Assembly (NCBI RefSeq): GCF_015482775.1
Contig: NZ_CP058214.1
Coordinates: 868,001 to 932,000 of the forward strand
Reading direction: 5' to 3'
DNA: 64,000 nt
DNA from: Kaustia mangrovi
Lineage (GTDB): Bacteria; Pseudomonadota; Alphaproteobacteria; Rhizobiales; Im1
Shown: piece by piece, positions 52,648 through 64,000 of the stretch
Layout: each line of letters opens with the position of its first letter
Position numbering within the stretch: position 1 is the stretch's first letter
Position numbers and translations under genes: made by a program
Notes under the pieces: generated by a model
What the model saw: the letters and a program-made list of their open reading frames with translations, nothing else
Databases searched by the model: none
Told to the model about the DNA's origin: nothing

Positions 52648-53028
52648 TCATGAATTGCCATCGGAACTATCGAAGGGATAGCCATCGAGCTTTCGGAAAC
52701 CTTGCCTGTAGCGCCCGGCAAGCTGGTCGAACTGGGTGCCCTTCCAAGGCGCGACGCCGGCGAAGTAGGCCGCGCGGGCGAGCACATGCGCACCGACCGG
52801 CGCGGTCAGGATGAAGAAGATGATCCCGGCCAGGGCCCGCGTGGTGATCTCCAGCTCGGTGAAATGGACGGCAATCGCCAGAAACAGTATGCCGACCCCC
52901 AGCGTACCCGCCTTGCTCGCGGCGTGCATCCGCGCATAGAGGTCCGGCAGGCGCACCAGACCGATGGCCGCGGTGAGCGAGAAGAAGGAGCCGATCAGAA
53001 GCAGGCTGCCGGTTATCACCTCCATCAT
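52648..53028 (-). CDS. mnhG: Mrp-type antiporter subunit G
   Basis: The 126-residue protein has three membrane segments ([63 protein letters not shown]) and the conserved [13 protein letters not shown] motif. Mrp antiporters exchange Na+ or K+ for H+ and need all seven subunits. The ATG at 53028 overlaps the mnhF stop by 4 bases. It is the last gene of the operon. Confidence 0.94.
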
Positions 53029-53387
53029 GACGCATTGTCTCCCGTCGAATTGGTCGTTGCCGGCCCGTCCTCCACGACCGCGGCCTCCCCGCCCTCGCCC
53101 TCCTCGTTCAGCCCGCGATTGATCACATAGCGGGCGAAGGCGACCGTCGCGAGGAAGCCGACGAGGCCCAGCGCAATCGCCACGTCGACATAGGTGCTCT
53201 GCTCGGTGCGCACCGCGATCACCGCGATGAAGCCGACCGCGATAGTCACCAGCATGTCGAGCGAAAGGATGCGGTCCGGCAGGGTCGGCCCACGCACCAG
53301 CCGCAGGACGATCAGCGCGAAGGCCACAAGGAACGCCACCAGCGACACGACGATGGAGATTTCGAGGAAACGGTCGGTCCAGCTCAT
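53025..53387 (-). CDS. mnhF: Mrp-type antiporter subunit F
   Basis: The 120-residue protein has three membrane segments ([51 protein letters not shown]) and the [17 protein letters not shown] motif. It carries an acidic, unstructured C-terminal tail of about 25 residues. Start and stop overlap neighbours by 4 bases. Confidence 0.94.
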
Positions 53388-53860
53388 CGCAGGGCCTCCA
53401 TGATCTTGCGCTCGAACCCCTTGGCCACGTCGTCGCGCAGCGCATCGATATCGTCCACGTCGAGCGCATGGATATAGAGCGTGGAGCGGTCGTCGGAGAT
53501 GTCCACGCTCAGCGTCCCGGGCGTCAGCGTGATCAGGTTGGCGAGCAGCGTGATCTCGATATTGCGGTCGCAGGTCAGCGGGAAGGCGACGAAGCCCGCC
53601 CTGAAGTTCTGCCCGGGCGTCAGCACGATCTTCACGACGCGCAGCGAGGAGAGAAGGAGCTCGTACAGGAACAGCCCCACAAGGCTGAGCACCAGATAGC
53701 CGCGCACGAAATATTTCGAGGTGCTGATCTGCTCGCGGATGAGCCAGAGCGCGAAGGCGGCCAGCACGAACCCGAAGACGAGGTTGATGACGGCGAAGCT
53801 GCCGGTCACCTCCGCCCAGATCAGCGCCAGTATGACATTGATGACGAAGGGATGGGTCAT
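53384..53860 (-). CDS. mnhE: Mrp-type antiporter subunit E
   Basis: The 158-residue protein has two to three N-terminal membrane segments ([53 protein letters not shown]) and the conserved [17 protein letters not shown] segment. The open frame extends to 55186 as a shadow of mnhD; the ATG at 53860 overlaps the mnhD stop by 4 bases. Confidence 0.94.
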
Positions 53861-55398
53861 GGCTGCACTCCCAGCACCGCGCCGATATAGCCCGCCGGAT
53901 CGATCAGCCCCTGGCTGGCATCCAGCGCAAGCGGCATGAGGAGCGTCGGCACGAGCCCGATCACCGTGGCCGCAAGGCCCAGAACGACAATCGGGCCGAT
54001 CACGGCCGCCCGCATGTCCAGCGCCGCCGCATCGGGCGCCGGCGCCGCCGTGCCGTCGGGCGTGCCCTCCGGCCCGCCGCGCAGGAACACGCTGCGCCAG
54101 ACCTTGGAGACGGCGACGGTGGTGATGAAGCCCGTGACGAGCACGCCGGCCGCCGGCCAGGCGAGCCCCTGGTCGAGGCTCTCGCGCACCAGCACCACCT
54201 TGGGCCAGAAGCCGGAAAACGGCGGCAGGCCGGCGATCGCGAATCCGAAGACGAGGAAGGCGCCGGCCAGCAGCGGGCTCGAGCCGTAGACATTGCCGAT
54301 CCTGTCGTAGCGCTCGTCGCCCGTCAGCCGCTCGACCGCCCCGGCGAGCAGGTAGAAGCCCGTCATCACGATCATCGAATGGGCGATGTAGAAGATGCCG
54401 CCGGCAAGGCCGTTGAGCGTGCCGAGCGACAGGCCGAGGATCATCGAGCCGATGCCGCTGATGACCAGGAAGCCGAGCATGCGCCGGATATGGGACTGGG
54501 CCAGGGCGCCCGCCGCCCCGATCACCATGGTCGCGACCGCCGCCCACAGCAGGATGTCGAAGATCGCCGCCGGCGCGTTCGCAAAGACCAGCGTGAAGAT
54601 CCGGAACAGCGCATAGACGGCGACCTTCGTCAGCAGGCCGGCGAACAGCGCGGAAACCACGAAGCGCGGCGTGTGATAGGAGGCCGGCAGCCAGAAGAAG
54701 AGCGGAAAGGCCGCCCCCTTCATGCCGAGGGCCACGACATAGAGCAGCGCGATCACCGCCAGCAGATCCCCGGAGGTGCTCTCGGGAACGGTCACCGCCA
54801 GATCGGCGAAATTGAGCGTTCCGGTGAGGCCGTAGAGAAGGCCCGTGGCGATCAGGAACAGCGTGGTCGCGACCAGGTTCAGGAAGGCGTATTTCACCGC
54901 GCCGTCGATCTGGATCTTCTCGCCGCCGAGGATCAGCATCCCGAAGGACGAGATGAGCAGCACCTCCAGCCACACATAGAGGTTGAAGATATCGCCGGTG
55001 AGGAAGGCCCCGTTGACGCCCGCCAGCATGATCAGGAGCAGCGGGAAGAAGCCGAAGCGCTGGGCGCGCCCGTCCATGTCGTCGAGCGCATAGACCGCCG
55101 CCAGCGTGCCGATCAGCGACCCGATGAGGGCGAGCAGCGCTCCCAGCGTGTCGGCGGCGAAGGTGATGCCGAAGGGCGGCAGCCACGAGCCCATGGTCAT
55201 GGCCAGCGGCCCTTCGGAGACGACACTCGCGAGCAGCCCGATATTGGCGGCGAGCAGCAGGACGACACCGACAATCCCGATCCGGGGCTGCCAGTGGAGG
55301 TGCCTGCGCTGCATGACACCCAGCGCACCCGCGATCAGGGGAATGATCACGGGCAGGATGACAAGCCAGGCATGGGCGGATATCGGGCTTTCGGACAT
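53857..55398 (-). CDS. mnhD: Mrp-type antiporter subunit D
   Basis: The 513-residue protein is a 14-TM homologue of complex I NuoM/N with the proton-translocation motif [21 protein letters not shown] (conserved Glu) and a Lys in [20 protein letters not shown]. Length is typical. It lies 18 bases after mnhC and overlaps mnhE by 4. Confidence 0.95.
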
Positions 55399-55416
55399 CT
55401 AGGCCGGCACCTTTCC

Positions 55417-55782
55417 TTATGCGTTCCGGTCGGTGCGCGGCTCGGCCACGCGCATCTCGTCGCTCGAATCCGTCCCGAGCTCCTCATAGGCGCGATAGGC
55501 CAGGACCAGAACGAAGGCGAACAGGGCGAAGCTGATCACGATGGCCGTGAGGATCAGCGCCTGCGGCAGCGGGTTGGCGACGGCCTCCGCCGGCACCTCC
55601 AGGCCCGGCGGCACGATGGGCGGCACCTCTCGCGTCACCCGCCCGGCGGTGAAGATCAGGAGATTGGTGGCATTGCCGAGCACCACCACGCCGATCAGCA
55701 GGCGGATGATGCTCTTCGACAGCATCAGATAGGTCGAGACCCCGAACAGCGTCGCGACGGTTATGGCCAGCAGCGGCTCCAT
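55417..55782 (-). CDS. mnhC: Mrp-type antiporter subunit C
   Basis: The 121-residue protein is a NuoK homologue with three membrane segments (ITVATLFGVSTYLMLS, LLIGVVVLGNATNLLIFTAG, ALILTAIVISFALFAFVLVLAYRAY). It carries the conserved NPLPQALILTAIVI. Lies 4 bases after mnhB. Confidence 0.95.
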   Translation of the reverse strand: MEPLLAITVATLFGVSTYLMLSKSIIRLLIGVVVLGNATNLLIFTAGRVTREVPPIVPPGLEVPAEAVANPLPQALILTAIVISFALFAFVLVLAYRAYEELGTDSSDEMRVAEPRTDRNA

Positions 55783-55786
55783 GGGC

Positions 55787-56209
55787 TCACCCGTAATCCT
55801 TCTCTTCGAGCGCGAGGGCTATTCCCGTGATCGCGCCGACCACGACCAGCCAGACGCCGATATCGAATATCAGCGGCGTCGACAGCGCGACCTTCGTCCC
55901 CTCCGAAAGCTCCGGCACCCACCACAGGCCGGTGAGGTAGGGGCTGTTCACGAGCGCCGAGGGCAGGCCGCTCAGCGCGGCCAGGAACATGCCGAGCCCC
56001 GATATGGAGATCGGATGGAACAGCAGCGCGCGGCGCACCGGCTGCACGCCGCAGGCGATGCCGTAGAGCGCGAAGGCGGAGGCCGCGATCAGGCCCGCGA
56101 TGAAGCCGCCGCCCGGCTCGTTGTGGCCGCGCAGCAGCACGAAGATGGAGAACAGCACCATCAGCGCGGTCAGAAGCGGCGTGATGGTGCGCAGGATAAG
56201 CGTGTTCAT
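55787..56209 (-). CDS. mnhB: Mrp-type antiporter subunit B
   Basis: The 140-residue protein has four membrane segments and the motif [25 protein letters not shown], the MnhB signature. In many rhizobia this subunit is fused to A (phaAB); here it is a separate gene whose start overlaps mnhA by 4 bases. Confidence 0.95.
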
Positions 56210-58569
56210 GCCTCGGCCTCCACCTTGTCGCCTCGCGGCTCCCCGGCGTCATCGACGGCCTGCGACTTGCGCCTCGCGCGCAGGCGGATCAGCGCGATGA
56301 CCGACAGGCCGGTCACCATGACCACCGTGATCTCGCCCAGCGTGTCGAGAGCGCGGAAGTCGACCAGGATCACATTGACGATATTGTGCCCGTGGGCGAG
56401 CGGCACGCTCGCCTCGGTGAAGAAGTCCGACAGCCGCATGTCGAGAGGGCGCTCGGTGACGGCGGTCAGCATGGTCGCCACGCCGCCCGCCACCAGAAGC
56501 GCCACCCCGCCATCGATGAGGCGCTCGTTCGTGGACCGGATATCGACCGCGTCGAGCCTGAGCCGCGTCATGACGAGGGTGAGGATCACCACCGACAGCG
56601 TCTCCACCATGAACTGGGTGAAGGAGAGGTCGGGCGCGCCGAACAGCAGGAAGATGAGCGCGACCGCCGAGCCCTGGATGCCGAGCGCGACGATGGCGGT
56701 CAGCCGTGTCCGGGCGAAGAGCAGCGAGATCGCGCCGATCACCGCCAGGACGAGGATGCCGAGCTCGTGGAAATGCGCCTCCGTCAGGCCGAGCGCGAAG
56801 CCGGGTTGCGACACCAGCGCGCTGCCGAGGATGAAGGGGGTCGCGAGCGCGAGGCCGAAGATCAGATAGACCACCAGAAGATAGCGCCGCAGGATGCCGG
56901 GCTGCACGATGCCGATGACGATGGCGCACAGCCGCTCCAGCCCCGCCAGCACCTGGTCGTAGCCGCGGTCCGGCCCCCAGCCTATCGCCGTCAGCATCCG
57001 CGCGAAGCCCGCGCGCAGCTCCGCGATCCGCCAGAGCAGGCCGAGCCCCAGTAGAACCGTGGCGATGCTGAGGAGGAATGGCGTGTTCACCCCGTGCCAC
57101 AGGCTCAGATGGCTCTCCATCGCCTCGCCCGCGATGGCACTGGCCATGGGCGTGACGATCCAGTGGCCGGTAATGGCCGTCGCGATGCCGAAAACCGGCC
57201 CCAGAACGGCGAGCAGGGCCGGGCCCGTCAGAAGCGAGAGCGGCGCCTCGTGGGGCTTTTTCGGCGTCTCCACCCGGTCGCCGGCGAAGGGCAGCCAGGC
57301 CACCGCGAAGGCCGCGGCGAACATCAGCCCGTTGCCGATGACGGCGACCGCCGTCACCGCCCAGGCGGACGATACGCCGATCGTGCCGGCATAGATCGAT
57401 TCCTTGGCGAGGAAGCCGACAAAGGGCGGCAGCCCGCCCATGGACAGCGCGGAGAGCAGCGCGAAGGCGAAGGTCGCCGGCATGGCCGCGCGCAGGCCGC
57501 CGAGCTTGGTGATGTCGCGCGTGCCCGTCTCGTGGTCGACGCAGCCGGCGAGCATGAAGAGCGCGCCCTTGAAGAAGGAATGGGCGACCAGATAGAGCAC
57601 CGCGCCCTCGATGGCCACCTCCGAGCCGAGCCCCGTCAGCATCACCAGAAGGCCGAGCGAGGCGACCGTCGTATAGGCGAGGATGAGCTTCAGGTCGGTC
57701 TGGCGGATCGACAGCACCGTGCCGGTGATCAGCGTGGCCGCGCCGAACGCCGTCAGCGTGGTCGACCACAATGCGGTGTCGCCGAGCGCCGGATTGAGGC
57801 GCATGAGCAGGTAGACGCCCGCCTTCACCATGGTCGCGGAATGCAGATAGGCGCTGACCGGCGTCGGCGCCTCCATGGCGTTGGGCAGCCAGAAATGGAA
57901 CGGTACCTGTGCCGATTTGGTGAAGGCCGCACCGAGGACCAGCACGAAGATCGCGACATAGAGCGGGCTTGCCTTCAGCGCCTCGCCGAGCCCGATGAGC
58001 CGCGACAGGGACCAGGCGTCGGTGACAAGCCCCATGAGGATGACGCCGGCGAGAAGCGACAGGCCGCCGATCCCCGTCACCACCAGCGCCTGCACCGCGG
58101 CCCGGCGCGAGGCCGCGCGCAGATGGTCGAAGCCGATCAGCAGGAAGGAGGTGATCGAGGTGAGCTCCCAGAAGACGAAGAGCGCGATCACGTCGTCGGC
58201 CACGACCAGCCCCAGCATGGAGGCCATGAACATCAGGATGAAGCTGAAGAAGCGGCCCTGATGGGGGTGCCCGTCGAGATAGCCGCCCGAATAGATCACG
58301 ATCATCGTGCCGATGCCGGTGATCAGGAGGGCGAAGACGAGGCTGAGCCCATCCAGGTAGAAGGACAGCTCGACGCCGAGCTGGGGCAGCCATGCGGTGG
58401 CTTCGCGCACCGTTCCGCCCGCCGCGATCTCCGGCGCGAAGCTGGCGAAATAGGCGAACAGCGCGGCCGGCAGCAGCGCCAGTACCCACCCTGCCCGTCC
58501 GCCCAGTGCGCGTTGCACGAGCGGCGCGAATGCGGCCAGGACGAATCCGGAAAGGACGGCAAGCAGCAT
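56206..58569 (-). CDS. mnhA: Mrp-type antiporter subunit A
   Basis: The 787-residue protein is a NuoL homologue with many membrane segments, the motif [26 protein letters not shown] (conserved Glu), and a C-terminal extension with a DUF4040-like part. Its frame starts with a TTG at 58581, but the ATG at 58569 has GAGAG upstream. First gene of mnhABCDEFG; its promoter must lie in 58570-58887. Confidence 0.95.
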
Positions 58570-58887
58570 GGACTCTCTCAAACCCCTCTAGACGGGTCCC
58601 CCTCCCTGGTGTCCCGACCGGCGAGTGTCCCGGCCGGAGCCGCCCTGCCGGACAGCATGCAAGGCACCGTATCCATGTGCCTTTTCGTCGGCAATCCCGG
58701 CTTGCGTTCCTGCGCGGGCAATCCCGCGGGTTATAGCCAACAGGCCAGGGCGCGCCAACCGCAATCCGACATGGATTGCCCTTTGCCAATCGTCGCACGC
58801 CCGCCCTGCCGTTACCATCGCGCCGGCACTAAGGACTTGCGATCGCCGGCCAGTGCGCTACGAAACCCGATGGTTGGCATTGAATAT
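58570..58887. promoter_or_regulatory. Divergent promoter region between the Mrp operon and maoC
   Basis: This 318-base gap should carry both promoters. I see no clear operator, repeat or convincing gene in it. Confidence 0.4.
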
Positions 58888-59805: not shown

Positions 59806-61896
59806 ATGGACGCCCGTCTCCCCGCCGTGCCGGCGCACGCGCGCAAGATTTCCCATGTCACCACCCGCCACGGCCATGAGCGCGACGATCCCTATCACTG
59901 GCTGCGCGCGGAGAACTGGCAGGAGGTGATGCGCGATCCCGGCGTGCTCGACCCGGAGATCCGCGCCTTCCTCGAGCAGGAGAATGCCCATGCGCAGGCC
60001 GTCATGGCCGACACGCAAGGCCTGCAGGAGGCGCTGGTGACGGAGATGCGCGGGCGCATCAAGGAGGACGATTCCTCCGTCCCCGCCCCCGACGGGCCCT
60101 TCGCCTATTATGTAAGCTATGTGGAGGGTGCCGAGCATCCCCGCTATTGCCGAAGCCCGCGCGGCGGCGGCGCGGAGACCGTGCTCGTCGACGGCCAGGC
60201 GCTCGCGCAGGGCAAGGCGTTCTTCCGGCTCGCCGGCGTCGACCACAGCCCCGACCACCGGCTCGTCGCCTATGGCTTCGACGAGACGGGCAGCGAATAC
60301 TACACGCTGCGCCTGAGGGAGGCCGATGGCGGCCGCGAGCTCGACGACCGCATCGAGGCGACCACGGGCCATGTCGCCTGGGCGGCGGACGGCGCCTCCT
60401 TCCTCTATGTCTGGAACGACGACAACCACCGCCCCTGCAAGGTGTTCCGCCATGCGGTCGGCACGCCGGCAGAAGCCGACACGCTGGTCTACGAGGAGGC
60501 CGACCCCGGCTTCTTCGTCGGCGTCGGCGAGACCCAGAGCCGCGACTTCCTCGTTATCAGCGCCCATGACCACGAGACGGCGGAGGTCTATCTGATCGAC
60601 GCGCACGCCCCGGAGACGCCGCCGCGCCTCGTCGCCGCGCGCGAGCCCGGCCACGAATACCATGTGGAACACCGCGGGGACCGCCTGCTCATCCTCACCA
60701 ATGCCGACGGGGCGGAGGACTTCAAGATCGTGGAGGCCCCGCTTAATGCCCCGGAACGGGACAACTGGCGCGAGCTCGTCGCCCATGTCCCCGGCCGGCT
60801 CATCCTCTCAATGACGCCCTTGCGCGACCACATGGTCAGACTGGAACGCGAGGACGGCCTGCCGCGCATCGTGGTGACCCATTTCGGGACAGGCGAGGAC
60901 CACGCCATCGCCTTCGACGAGGAGGCCTATTCGCTGGGGCTCGATCCGGGCTACGAGTTCGACACCGCGACCGTGCGCTTCAGCTATTCCTCCATGACGA
61001 CGCCGGCGCAGATCTTCGACTACGACCTTCAGACCCGCGAGCGCGTCCTGCGCAAGACGCAGGAGGTGCCGTCCGGCCACGACCCGGCCGACTATGTGAC
61101 GCGCCGCCTGCTGGCGCCTGCCGCCGACGGCGAGACGGTGCCCGTCTCCCTCCTCTACCGCAGGGACACCCCGCTTAACGGCTCCGCGCCCTGCCTGCTC
61201 TATGGCTACGGCTCCTACGGCATCTCGGTGCCCGCCTCCTTCGCCACCAACCGGCTCAGCCTCGTCGACCGCGGCTTCGTCTATGCCATCGCCCATATCC
61301 GCGGCGGCAAGGACAAGGGCTATCGCTGGTATCGCGAGGGCAAGCGGCAGGCCAAGGCCAACACCTTCACCGACTTCGTGGCCGCCGCCGAGCACCTCGT
61401 CGCGCAAGGGGTCACGGGCAGAGGGGCGATCGTCGCCCAGGGCGGCAGCGCCGGCGGCATGCTCATGGGCGCGGTCGCCAACATGGCGCCGGAGCTCTTC
61501 GCCGGCATCGTCGCGGAGGTCCCCTTCGTCGACGTGCTGAACACCATGCTCGACGCCACCCTGCCGCTGACCCCGCCGGAATGGCCCGAATGGGGCAATC
61601 CCATAGAGAGCGCTCAAGACTACGAGACCATCGCCGCCTATTCGCCCTACGACAATGTGCGCAACGGCCCCTACCCCCACATCCTCGCGCTCGCCGGCCT
61701 CTCCGACCCGCGCGTCACCTATTGGGAACCGGCCAAGTGGATCGCCCGCCTGCGCGAGATGAAGACCGACGACAACCTCCTCCTCCTCCACACCAACATG
61801 GACGCGGGACATGCGGGGGCAGCGGGACGGTTCGACAGGCTGAAGGAGGTGGCGCTGGTCTATGCGTTTGCGTTGAAGGTGGCGGGGAGGGTGTGA
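59806..61896 (+). CDS. ptrB: Oligopeptidase B (S9 family)
   Basis: The 696-residue serine peptidase has an N-terminal beta-propeller and a C-terminal alpha/beta hydrolase domain with the triad Ser548 (QGGSAGGML), Asp near 634 (GLSDPRVTYWEPAKW) and His near 669 (MDAGHAGAAGRF). The N-terminal YHWLRAENWQEVMRDP is typical of PtrB, which cuts short peptides after basic residues. It lies 10 bases after msrB. Confidence 0.94.
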   Translation: MDARLPAVPAHARKISHVTTRHGHERDDPYHWLRAENWQEVMRDPGVLDPEIRAFLEQENAHAQAVMADTQGLQEALVTEMRGRIKEDDSSVPAPDGPFAYYVSYVEGAEHPRYCRSPRGGGAETVLVDGQALAQGKAFFRLAGVDHSPDHRLVAYGFDETGSEYYTLRLREADGGRELDDRIEATTGHVAWAADGASFLYVWNDDNHRPCKVFRHAVGTPAEADTLVYEEADPGFFVGVGETQSRDFLVISAHDHETAEVYLIDAHAPETPPRLVAAREPGHEYHVEHRGDRLLILTNADGAEDFKIVEAPLNAPERDNWRELVAHVPGRLILSMTPLRDHMVRLEREDGLPRIVVTHFGTGEDHAIAFDEEAYSLGLDPGYEFDTATVRFSYSSMTTPAQIFDYDLQTRERVLRKTQEVPSGHDPADYVTRRLLAPAADGETVPVSLLYRRDTPLNGSAPCLLYGYGSYGISVPASFATNRLSLVDRGFVYAIAHIRGGKDKGYRWYREGKRQAKANTFTDFVAAAEHLVAQGVTGRGAIVAQGGSAGGMLMGAVANMAPELFAGIVAEVPFVDVLNTMLDATLPLTPPEWPEWGNPIESAQDYETIAAYSPYDNVRNGPYPHILALAGLSDPRVTYWEPAKWIARLREMKTDDNLLLLHTNMDAGHAGAAGRFDRLKEVALVYAFALKVAGRV

Positions 61897-61937
61897 GGGG
61901 GCTGTTCTTTGCTATGTAGCCAACACACTTCGATGTC

Positions 61938-61960
61938 GTCCCGGGACTTGTTCCCGGGAC
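61938..61960. repeat. Inverted repeat after ptrB
   Basis: GTCCCGGGA (61938-61946) and TCCCGGGAC (61952-61960) pair perfectly around 5 bases; CCATTGG follows. This is another intergenic palindrome of the GTC-CCGGG type common in the group. The rest of 61897-62082 is unremarkable. Confidence 0.65.
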
Positions 61961-62082
61961 CCATTGGCCTATCCGGTTTCGCGGATACCGCTTTGATCCT
62001 TGTCCCCCTCAGTCGTCATCCCTACAAAGTGAAGTCGGGCGGCACAAGTAGAGCGACTAAGTTGGTGCTGGCAATCACAGAA

Positions 62083-64000
62083 TCACCGCGCACGCCGCCT
62101 TTGCCGCTTCTTTATGAGCCAGCTGTGATACGACTCTAAGCCAAGATAGAGTTGCTGAGTATAATCAGCCAAATGTCGCAAATTATCCATTCTTGCCAAG
62201 CCGTGAGAAGCGATTTTGGCGCGCTTGCCCCCCTTCGCCTCCCACTCTGACTTAAGAGAATAAGCAGTGAACAACTCTGTACCTGTGAGCATAATGACAG
62301 GTGCTCGTGTGCCGCGCTGGTTCGGTAGGTATTCTCGCCCCCAAGTGGCCAGTCTTCTTAGTCGCGCAATTTCCCGGTGCGAGAGATCGCTCGCCTCTTT
62401 CATGGTGGCGAAGACAATAATTGAGCCAGGAAAACGCTTGGCGAGGCACTTCATTCTACCGACATCATCTCGCGTGAACGCTTCGCGGCTGAAACTCTTG
62501 GCCTCGCCGAATACCGTCTCGGTAGGATAATCGTTGCCTAGGATTTGCTTGCGCTGATACCAGAGAATGACGTCAGCTTCGGGTTTGCACGTCGGTTCAA
62601 GTTCCAGTTCTTGTCCAGCCGACCAAGTAATCTGGGCGCGCGTTCGTCCGATGACGGTGGCAAAGAAGCGAAGCGTGAGCGCCGCTGCGTAACCTCCTCC
62701 CGCATAGTCAGGGAGAGCGAATGGGCCGACAAGGCGGTAGGACCAACGGGTATGCTGGCTTGAAGACGGGTCAATAACTGGAAACGGAAAGGACTGTAGA
62801 CATAGACCGCAATTTACAGTGTGGCCAAGATCCTTCAGCTGGTGCCAGCTCCAGCTGGAACATTTTTCACATTTGATTTCGAGCCCGAGTTCAACCGCGT
62901 TGCGCTGCACGAGAGTCTCGAAATTTTTGCGACGCCAAATGTCGCCTTTAGTGATGTTGTGGATGCGATTTCGAAATTCTTGGTGCTGTATGCTTCTTGA
63001 ACCTGGCTTTCGTGATATTTTATCGAGAAGCTGAACTATTTCGGGGTGAGCTATGCTCCTGACACCCCAGAAACCGCTGAGCGTTTTCACAATTTGCTGC
63101 GTTGCACGCCCGGAATCAGACTGTGAAGATCTCACATTTTTTGTTTCCAGCCACTTCCGTATAGTTGTTGCATCATCCGAAAATTGCCAGAACTGCGAAA
63201 CACCTCGGTACTTATGAAATACCACCAAGCCTTCGGTCGTTGACAGCAGATATTCCAAGTCGATATTCAGACGAGAGAATAGGCCATGCCGATGGTTAGT
63301 TGGATAGACAGTGGCGACTTGACCATTAAGTCCCCAATCTCGCAAATTGACGACATTGGCCCACCGGTGATCATTTCCGTACTCCGAGGCAAACTCCGGG
63401 TGCAGCCCTTCGAACCGCAGCTCAGGTTTCTCGGGATCGATTGGTGCATCAAAGGTTTTGCTGTCGGCCGACAGAGTCGGTCGCATTTCGCGCACAGTGA
63501 AACTCGGTGAAGATCGCCAAAGCGGTGGGTAACAATCCTGACGAACAATTGCCCCCTCGATCTCGACTCTGAAATGGGCACGATAGATGCGATCCAAATT
63601 CTCAGTTGGAATGGAGCGTGCGAACATCACGTGTGGCTGGATCATTACCCCGTTGGGGTTGTCGGGTAGGGGTCGATAATTCAGCTTTATGAATTCTTTT
63701 GCGAAAGCCGATAACTCTCCTGCCCATTGGACAGGAACTGGCAGAACATCGCGACGAGTGGCGCGAAGATTCCAGTAGTCAATTAGGTCCTGAGACTTTG
63801 TCGGATCCAGCACGAACAGCGCCGGATCGCTGAGATCGTGATAGCCGACGTTGAGCTTCGAATGTCCCATACGAAGTGCTGATCTTCTGCCTGATCGGAA
63901 GAATTCGGCGAGAGCGTCTCCATCCAGTACGACGGTCTCGGGATCGAAAGTATCGATGAAAGCGTTCTCAAAGTAGGCGAGGCCATCGGTTTTCGGGAAG
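62083..64000 (-). CDS. Unrecognised protein with zinc-ribbon and PD-(D/E)XK-like segment, 5' end off the window
   Basis: The frame is open to the right edge (the visible N-terminal part begins FPKTDGLAYFENAF), so the start lies beyond 64000; the Met at 63870 is internal. I do not recognise the family. Visible, numbering from that Met: a globular alpha/beta region, a four-cysteine segment (C334-x2-C337, C354-x2-C357) like a zinc ribbon, then ADVILWY (Asp433) and GEAKSF (Glu456-Ala-Lys458) followed by a strand SIIVFAT, which fits a PD-(D/E)XK nuclease core, and a basic C-terminus (KKRQRRRAR). Its GC content is clearly below its neighbours, so recent transfer is likely. A defence or DNA-processing role is conceivable but unproven. 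Confidence 0.7.
   Translation of the reverse strand, partial: FPKTDGLAYFENAFIDTFDPETVVLDGDALAEFFRSGRRSALRMGHSKLNVGYHDLSDPALFVLDPTKSQDLIDYWNLRATRRDVLPVPVQWAGELSAFAKEFIKLNYRPLPDNPNGVMIQPHVMFARSIPTENLDRIYRAHFRVEIEGAIVRQDCYPPLWRSSPSFTVREMRPTLSADSKTFDAPIDPEKPELRFEGLHPEFASEYGNDHRWANVVNLRDWGLNGQVATVYPTNHRHGLFSRLNIDLEYLLSTTEGLVVFHKYRGVSQFWQFSDDATTIRKWLETKNVRSSQSDSGRATQQIVKTLSGFWGVRSIAHPEIVQLLDKISRKPGSRSIQHQEFRNRIHNITKGDIWRRKNFETLVQRNAVELGLEIKCEKCSSWSWHQLKDLGHTVNCGLCLQSFPFPVIDPSSSQHTRWSYRLVGPFALPDYAGGGYAAALTLRFFATVIGRTRAQITWSAGQELELEPTCKPEADVILWYQRKQILGNDYPTETVFGEAKSFSREAFTRDDVGRMKCLAKRFPGSIIVFATMKEASDLSHREIARLRRLATWGREYLPNQRGTRAPVIMLTGTELFTAYSLKSEWEAKGGKRAKIASHGLARMDNLRHLADYTQQLYLGLESYHSWLIKKRQRRRAR

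Follow-up and report, generated by a model that had tools for sequence, protein, structure and literature searches.

A horizontally acquired orphan gene of Kaustia mangrovi encodes a predicted PD-(D/E)XK protein of an undescribed family and is a candidate single-gene defence nuclease

Results

The orphan gene and its insertion site

We analysed a stretch of 64,000 nucleotides of the Kaustia mangrovi chromosome, hereafter the window (contig NZ_CP058214.1, positions G000:C1:868001-932000 of a source genome that forms a single contig of 4.63 Mb), at the right end of which lies an orphan gene. The first-pass annotation of the window had described there a protein of more than 630 residues, open to the window end, with a composition unlike that of the chromosome on its left. 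Indeed, we found one open frame of 638 codons, with a guanine-plus-cytosine (GC) content of 52% against 69% in the surrounding chromosome. When the sequence was extended, the frame was observed to continue past the window to G000:C1:932566. We assigned the start to the ATG at G000:C1:932491 (MSHMSVTV), which aligns with the start of a homologue from Photobacterium (40% identity to the window protein over 97%). The full-length protein has 802 amino acids, of which residues 165-802 are encoded inside the window. The residues Asp433, Glu456 and Lys458 of the first-pass annotation, whose numbering begins at the first ATG within the window, correspond to D640, E663 and K665 of the 802-residue protein; positions given in an 827-residue frame are converted by subtracting 25. 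The features of the gene are as follows, from the N-terminal side.

62083-64000, minus strand: the last 638 of the 802 codons of the orphan gene, one open frame running off the window end.
63487-63999, minus strand: part (residues 165-335) of a predicted N-terminal bilobed alpha/beta domain (residues 1-335), from the alignment and models.
63184-63486, minus strand: predicted middle beta-rich segment, residues 336-436, from the secondary structure of the models.
62767-63183, minus strand: predicted accessory helices and two-strand motif, residues 437-575, from the model, the fold matches and the published description of the Can2 motif (PMC7969007).
62800-62871, minus strand: zinc ribbon CEKC-16-CGLC (C541, C544, C561 and C564), invariant in 75 of 75 homologues.
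62257-62766, minus strand: predicted PD-(D/E)XK nuclease core, residues 576-745, from the model and fold matches.
62497-62580, minus strand: predicted catalytic motif E638-x-D640 ... E663-x-K665 (EADVILW...VFGEAK), from the alignment.
59806-61896, plus strand: left flank, gene of an S9 prolyl oligopeptidase/oligopeptidase B, which in relatives directly precedes an acyl-CoA dehydrogenase gene.

In three genomes of the same family as K. mangrovi the site is empty, the acyl-CoA dehydrogenase gene following within about 75 bp of the S9 oligopeptidase gene. In the source genome the two are separated by the 2.4-kb orphan gene and some flanking DNA, and the GC content returns to 69% about 0.5 kb beyond the orphan gene, at the acyl-CoA dehydrogenase gene. 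Because these two genes adjoin in the three relatives, we conclude that the orphan is a foreign lone gene placed between two ordinary genes by a single-gene gain, and not the edge of a larger island. Transposon-like ends, terminal repeats and target repeats were looked for around the insertion in the source genome and none was found.

Two other features of the window were observed. A palindromic element, CCGGGACTTGTTCCCGG, lies at positions 61934-61964, in the gap that separates the S9 gene from the orphan; we take it to resemble the short palindromic repeats of alphaproteobacteria. Further to the left, at 52648-58581 on the minus strand, an ordinary operon for a Mrp-type multisubunit Na+/H+ antiporter was recognised by eye from the translations.

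An undescribed family scattered over many bacterial phyla

By a scan of genome contigs we confirmed 123 relatives of the orphan protein, of which 80 were kept; together with other loci they gave 75 full-length sequences, which were aligned. Identity to the window protein goes from 80% down to about 16%. The hosts include Pseudomonadota, Poribacteria, Planctomycetota, Acidobacteriota, Nitrospirota and Bacteroidota as well as Chloroflexota, Bacillota, Actinomycetota and Patescibacteria, and in the family tree the phyla are intermixed. A single-sequence search of the class retrieved only the window's own genome (1 of 385), and in the phylum 4 of 398 genomes, its own included, carry the gene, two of these copies being broken or partial. 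No DNA-level match was found in 5,426 E. coli genomes with the Citrobacter homologue as query, and no family match was found in phage records.

All the annotated copies that we met are labelled hypothetical protein. The first-pass annotation knew no family with this combination of features, and for the libraries that we searched this holds: no convincing match in Pfam, NCBIfam, PADLOC or PHROGs was obtained with the window protein or with any of 24 diverse members. In particular, the PADLOC models, those of Shedu included, do not match the window protein, no member among the 24 has a Pfam match to the Card1/Can2 family (DUF1887, PF09002), and a single one of them has one weak PADLOC match, to BrxD (E = 0.0075). 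Nothing specific to the family was found in the literature, most subscription papers and all supplements being outside that search. DefensePredictor has led to the report of many PD-(D/E)XK systems in E. coli (PMC13092281). This type of nuclease is known, whereas its pairing with this N-terminal domain and a zinc ribbon is in no library that was tested; the supplementary table of a large defence screen may list the family. The family is undescribed, and it is thinly scattered yet very widespread among bacteria.

Two members are peculiar. One, on a contig of an Acidobacteriaceae metagenome-assembled genome (L082:8032-10446), has S9 prolyl-oligopeptidase sequence after its ExK motif, at residues 610-760; this segment is a fusion or a misassembly, an oddity of that one contig and not a feature of the family. 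The other (L010 / L087) is a distant, interrupted member; a DUF2130 gene of the same orientation lies 51 bp away from it.

A predicted nuclease half of the Can2/Card1 type

The first-pass annotation had pointed to a CxxC...CxxC segment and to an Asp ... Glu-x-Lys spacing like that of PD-(D/E)XK nucleases. Both are present, and D640, E663, K665 and the four cysteines are identical in all 75 full-length homologues, from many phyla; invariant to this extent, these residues are not there by chance. The glutamate of the ExD motif (E638; E663 in the 827-residue numbering) is present in 74 of the 75. Other invariant residues, in that same 827-residue numbering, are W63-G64-G65, G188 and W265-N266.

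An AlphaFold2 model of the full protein, built from 71 sequences, has a mean predicted local distance difference test score (pLDDT) of 90.7 and a predicted template modelling score (pTM) of 0.90. It places a nuclease fold where the first-pass annotation had expected one. The best solved fold matches to residues 442-777 are Cdn1 (Z score 11.7; 222 residues, 4.7 Å), Can2 (10.3) and Card1 (9.9), the last of which was among the families that annotation had suggested for comparison. The first eleven rows of matches are all of this kind, ahead of FokI (7.7), and in the matched chains the aligned range goes from about residue 145 to the end, that is the part after the CARF domain. The core fold, a central sheet flanked by helices, also matches AgeI and EcoT38I besides FokI. 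A sequence search of the PDB gave only weak matches to the zinc ribbon. Together with the conservation of the D...(D/E)xK residues, the modelled core makes membership in the PD-(D/E)XK superfamily well supported as a fold. The more precise assignment, to a DUF1887-type nuclease half with ExD...ExK and an accessory motif, holds at the level of the fold only (Z 9.9-11.7 over about 200 residues).

Can2 has E276 and D278 as catalytic residues and carries an additional motif, composed of two antiparallel strands with four helices (PMC7969007). In Cdn1 the residues of the metal site are E274, D310, E323 and K325 (PMC12825302). The ExD...ExK layout of the active site (E276/D278 in Can2; D310, E323 and K325 in Cdn1) is common to these enzymes and the new family (PMC7969007, PMC12825302), and when a profile of the family was aligned with PF09002 proteins of other genomes the ExD...ExK motifs coincided, with a negligible score. 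In the model, residues 437-575 are apparently equivalent in position to the accessory motif of Can2/VC1899, and the zinc ribbon appears to sit between its two strands, as read from secondary structure and not from a superposition.

The family differs from Card1, Can2 and Cdn1 by its 440-residue N-terminal part, in which no CARF domain was recognised, by its zinc ribbon, by the lack of the alpha-A glutamate and of a significant sequence match, and by hosts in which no Cas10 was found. FokI and the nickase N.BspD6I match the PD-(D/E)XK core at lower scores (Z 7.4-7.7); they have other DNA-recognition domains and partner methyltransferases. Shedu (SduA) is also a single-gene defence system with a PD-(D/E)XK-type nuclease; its N-terminal part and its size differ from those of the new family.

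The N-terminal half

Modelled alone, residues 1-436 gave a pLDDT of 89.3 and a pTM of 0.91. Residues 1-335 look like a two-lobed alpha/beta domain, followed by the beta-rich segment, the division into lobes being read from secondary structure. The motif D235...W240-N241 (DLxxxWNxR) belongs to the segment encoded in the window and W38-G39-G40-x-x-N43-P44 (WGGxxNP) to the part beyond it. In the model, residues 1-436 would occupy the place where a CARF domain would be. Foldseek and VIA-align retrieved no convincing relative of these residues in the PDB; the weak matches were chiefly to individual lobes of periplasmic-binding-type proteins, and to glutamate racemases. Given the background of such scores, we assigned no fold to residues 1-436. 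Neither CARF nor SAVED is listed among their fold matches, a listing that does not exclude either domain. We also considered an internal duplication of the lobes, for which an hhalign comparison of the two halves gave no support.

Genomic context, mobility and association with defence genes

The family gene is nearly always alone. Its neighbours differ among loci, without a conserved partner gene or operon, so that it stands as a solo nuclease gene without a cognate methyltransferase. A 208-residue protein without Pfam match is encoded directly upstream of the nuclease gene at L009:841-1467 and also in L047 and L053; it recurs only in these three related alphaproteobacterial loci, where it is possibly a local partner or regulator.

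In 46 of 67 loci the GC content of the gene is more than 3 points below that of its flanks (median difference 5.6 points). One copy lies inside a Mu-like phage, between the early genes and gemA, and others are carried on plasmids of Photobacterium and Bradyrhizobium. Together with the intermixed phyla of the tree and the empty site in three relatives of K. mangrovi, these features support a horizontal spread. We observed relatives of HsdM in 9 of 86 loci (1.25 Mb). In 150 genomes HsdM_N matched about 175 times, or roughly 0.3 times per Mb if the mean genome is taken as about 3.7 Mb; type I restriction genes are therefore enriched about 20-fold beside family genes. Other neighbours include McrB/McrC-type proteins, an Eco57I-type restriction-modification (RM) protein, a Schlafen-type protein, serine recombinases and an integrase. 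The family thus has the profile of a mobile defence gene, being sporadic, solitary, found on mobile elements and near other defence genes, and its members do not sit in housekeeping contexts with conserved synteny. The suggestion of the first-pass annotation that such genes mark defence or mobile islands is borne out for the family, by the RM genes, integrases, Mu-like phage and plasmids, but not at the K. mangrovi locus, where a single gene was inserted.

Hosts without Cas10

Card1 and Can2 are effectors of type III systems of clustered regularly interspaced short palindromic repeats (CRISPR), so the hosts were searched for the corresponding signal-producing enzymes. Cas10 of the Csm1 type gave no match in 25 host genomes and the own genome, and Cas10 of the Cmr2 type none over the cut-off in the same number of hosts, 26 with the own one. 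No SMODS cyclase was found in the own genome, and 4 of the 25 other hosts have one. A search with PF22335 was set aside as evidence, since it also matches in E. coli, probably GGDEF proteins. As these hosts have no Cas10, their Card1-like nuclease is not driven by type III CRISPR signals. No CRISPR-like array lies beside family members except one short repeat set: from L063:26 onward, at a contig end, four copies of a 20-nt repeat (GAAATGTTTATAGATAACGT) follow one another with CRISPR-like spacing.

Discussion

The fold and the defence-like behaviour of the family are well supported. The analysis shows the predicted fold, the conserved motifs, the solitary and mobile distribution, the association with RM genes and the lack of Cas10, whereas catalysis, action against phage and sensing are inferred. 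On balance, we favour the view that the orphan was gained by horizontal transfer and that this one gene encodes a defence nuclease which has its own sensor and acts against phage. According to this proposal, the N-terminal 440 residues or so would replace the CARF domain and most likely sense an infection cue, which could be a small ligand or a phage product; this sensing would switch the nuclease on. The Can2/Card1/Cdn1-type half would then cut nucleic acid via E638-x-D640 ... E663-x-K665, while the zinc ribbon, set into the accessory motif with its two strands, probably grips the substrate. Nicking or degradation of phage, and perhaps host, nucleic acid would stop phage growth.

Several observations weigh against this proposal. 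By sequence alone, the link to Card1 falls short of significance (hhalign probability about 5%). Where Cdn1 has the alpha-A glutamate E274, the new family has V or A, so that the two metal sites are not identical. The best fold match of the N-terminal part (Z 8.5, 89 residues) extends over a single lobe, and no pocket or ligand was identified in that domain. As for the RM enrichment, it comes from nine loci, three of them from related Poribacteria, and its background is made of Pseudomonadota only.

The main rival, possible though less probable, is that the protein is a type IV modification-dependent restriction enzyme, whose N-terminal and zinc parts would read modified phage DNA and whose PD-(D/E)XK core would cut nearby, with no separate signal. 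A solo PD-(D/E)XK gene near type I RM and McrBC genes is a usual setting of such enzymes; Mrr and MspJI are likewise encoded by single genes, have a PD-(D/E)XK domain and often lie beside RM genes. The weaker fold matches include MspJI (Z 5.8), and the zinc ribbon and accessory motif, which adjoin the core, could read DNA. However, Pfam and fold matches of the first 440 residues gave no recognisable base reader, be it SRA, EVE/PUA-like or another, nor the SRA-like and winged-helix readers of MspJI and Mrr. Moreover, the closest nuclease folds belong to signal-activated effectors and not to type IV enzymes, and a two-lobed alpha/beta domain of 330 residues would be unusual for a base reader.

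It is improbable that the gene serves DNA repair, recombination or the maintenance of mobile elements, or is a selfish moron gene, rather than defence. The copies in a Mu-like phage, on plasmids and near recombinases would fit such a role, but the neighbours are unrelated, without a conserved element or partner, and RM genes are over-represented among them. Finally, an ancillary effector activated by cyclic oligonucleotides of type III CRISPR or of a cyclic oligonucleotide-based antiphage signalling system, like Card1 and Can2, is suggested by the nuclease half, but we rejected it as largely refuted and very improbable after the Cas10 and SMODS searches, with neither CARF nor SAVED recognised and no adjoining array beyond the short repeat set.

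If the orphan is indeed a defence nuclease with its own sensor, the Card1/Can2 nuclease module would no longer be tied to type III CRISPR: its effector fold would here be combined with another front half, self-contained, in proteins that occur in many bacterial phyla, among them Patescibacteria and Poribacteria. A bolder version is that the N-terminal 330 residues form a new kind of immune sensor, marked by the conserved WGGxxNP and DLxxxWNxR motifs, which would bind an alarm molecule or phage product not known before and switch on a Can2-type nuclease within one protein, without Cas10 or a CD-NTase; we put it forward as a possible though less probable reading. If the N-terminal domain does turn out to sense, the ligand that it binds would represent a new infection cue. 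The family supplies clear predicted catalytic residues and a ready profile for annotation.
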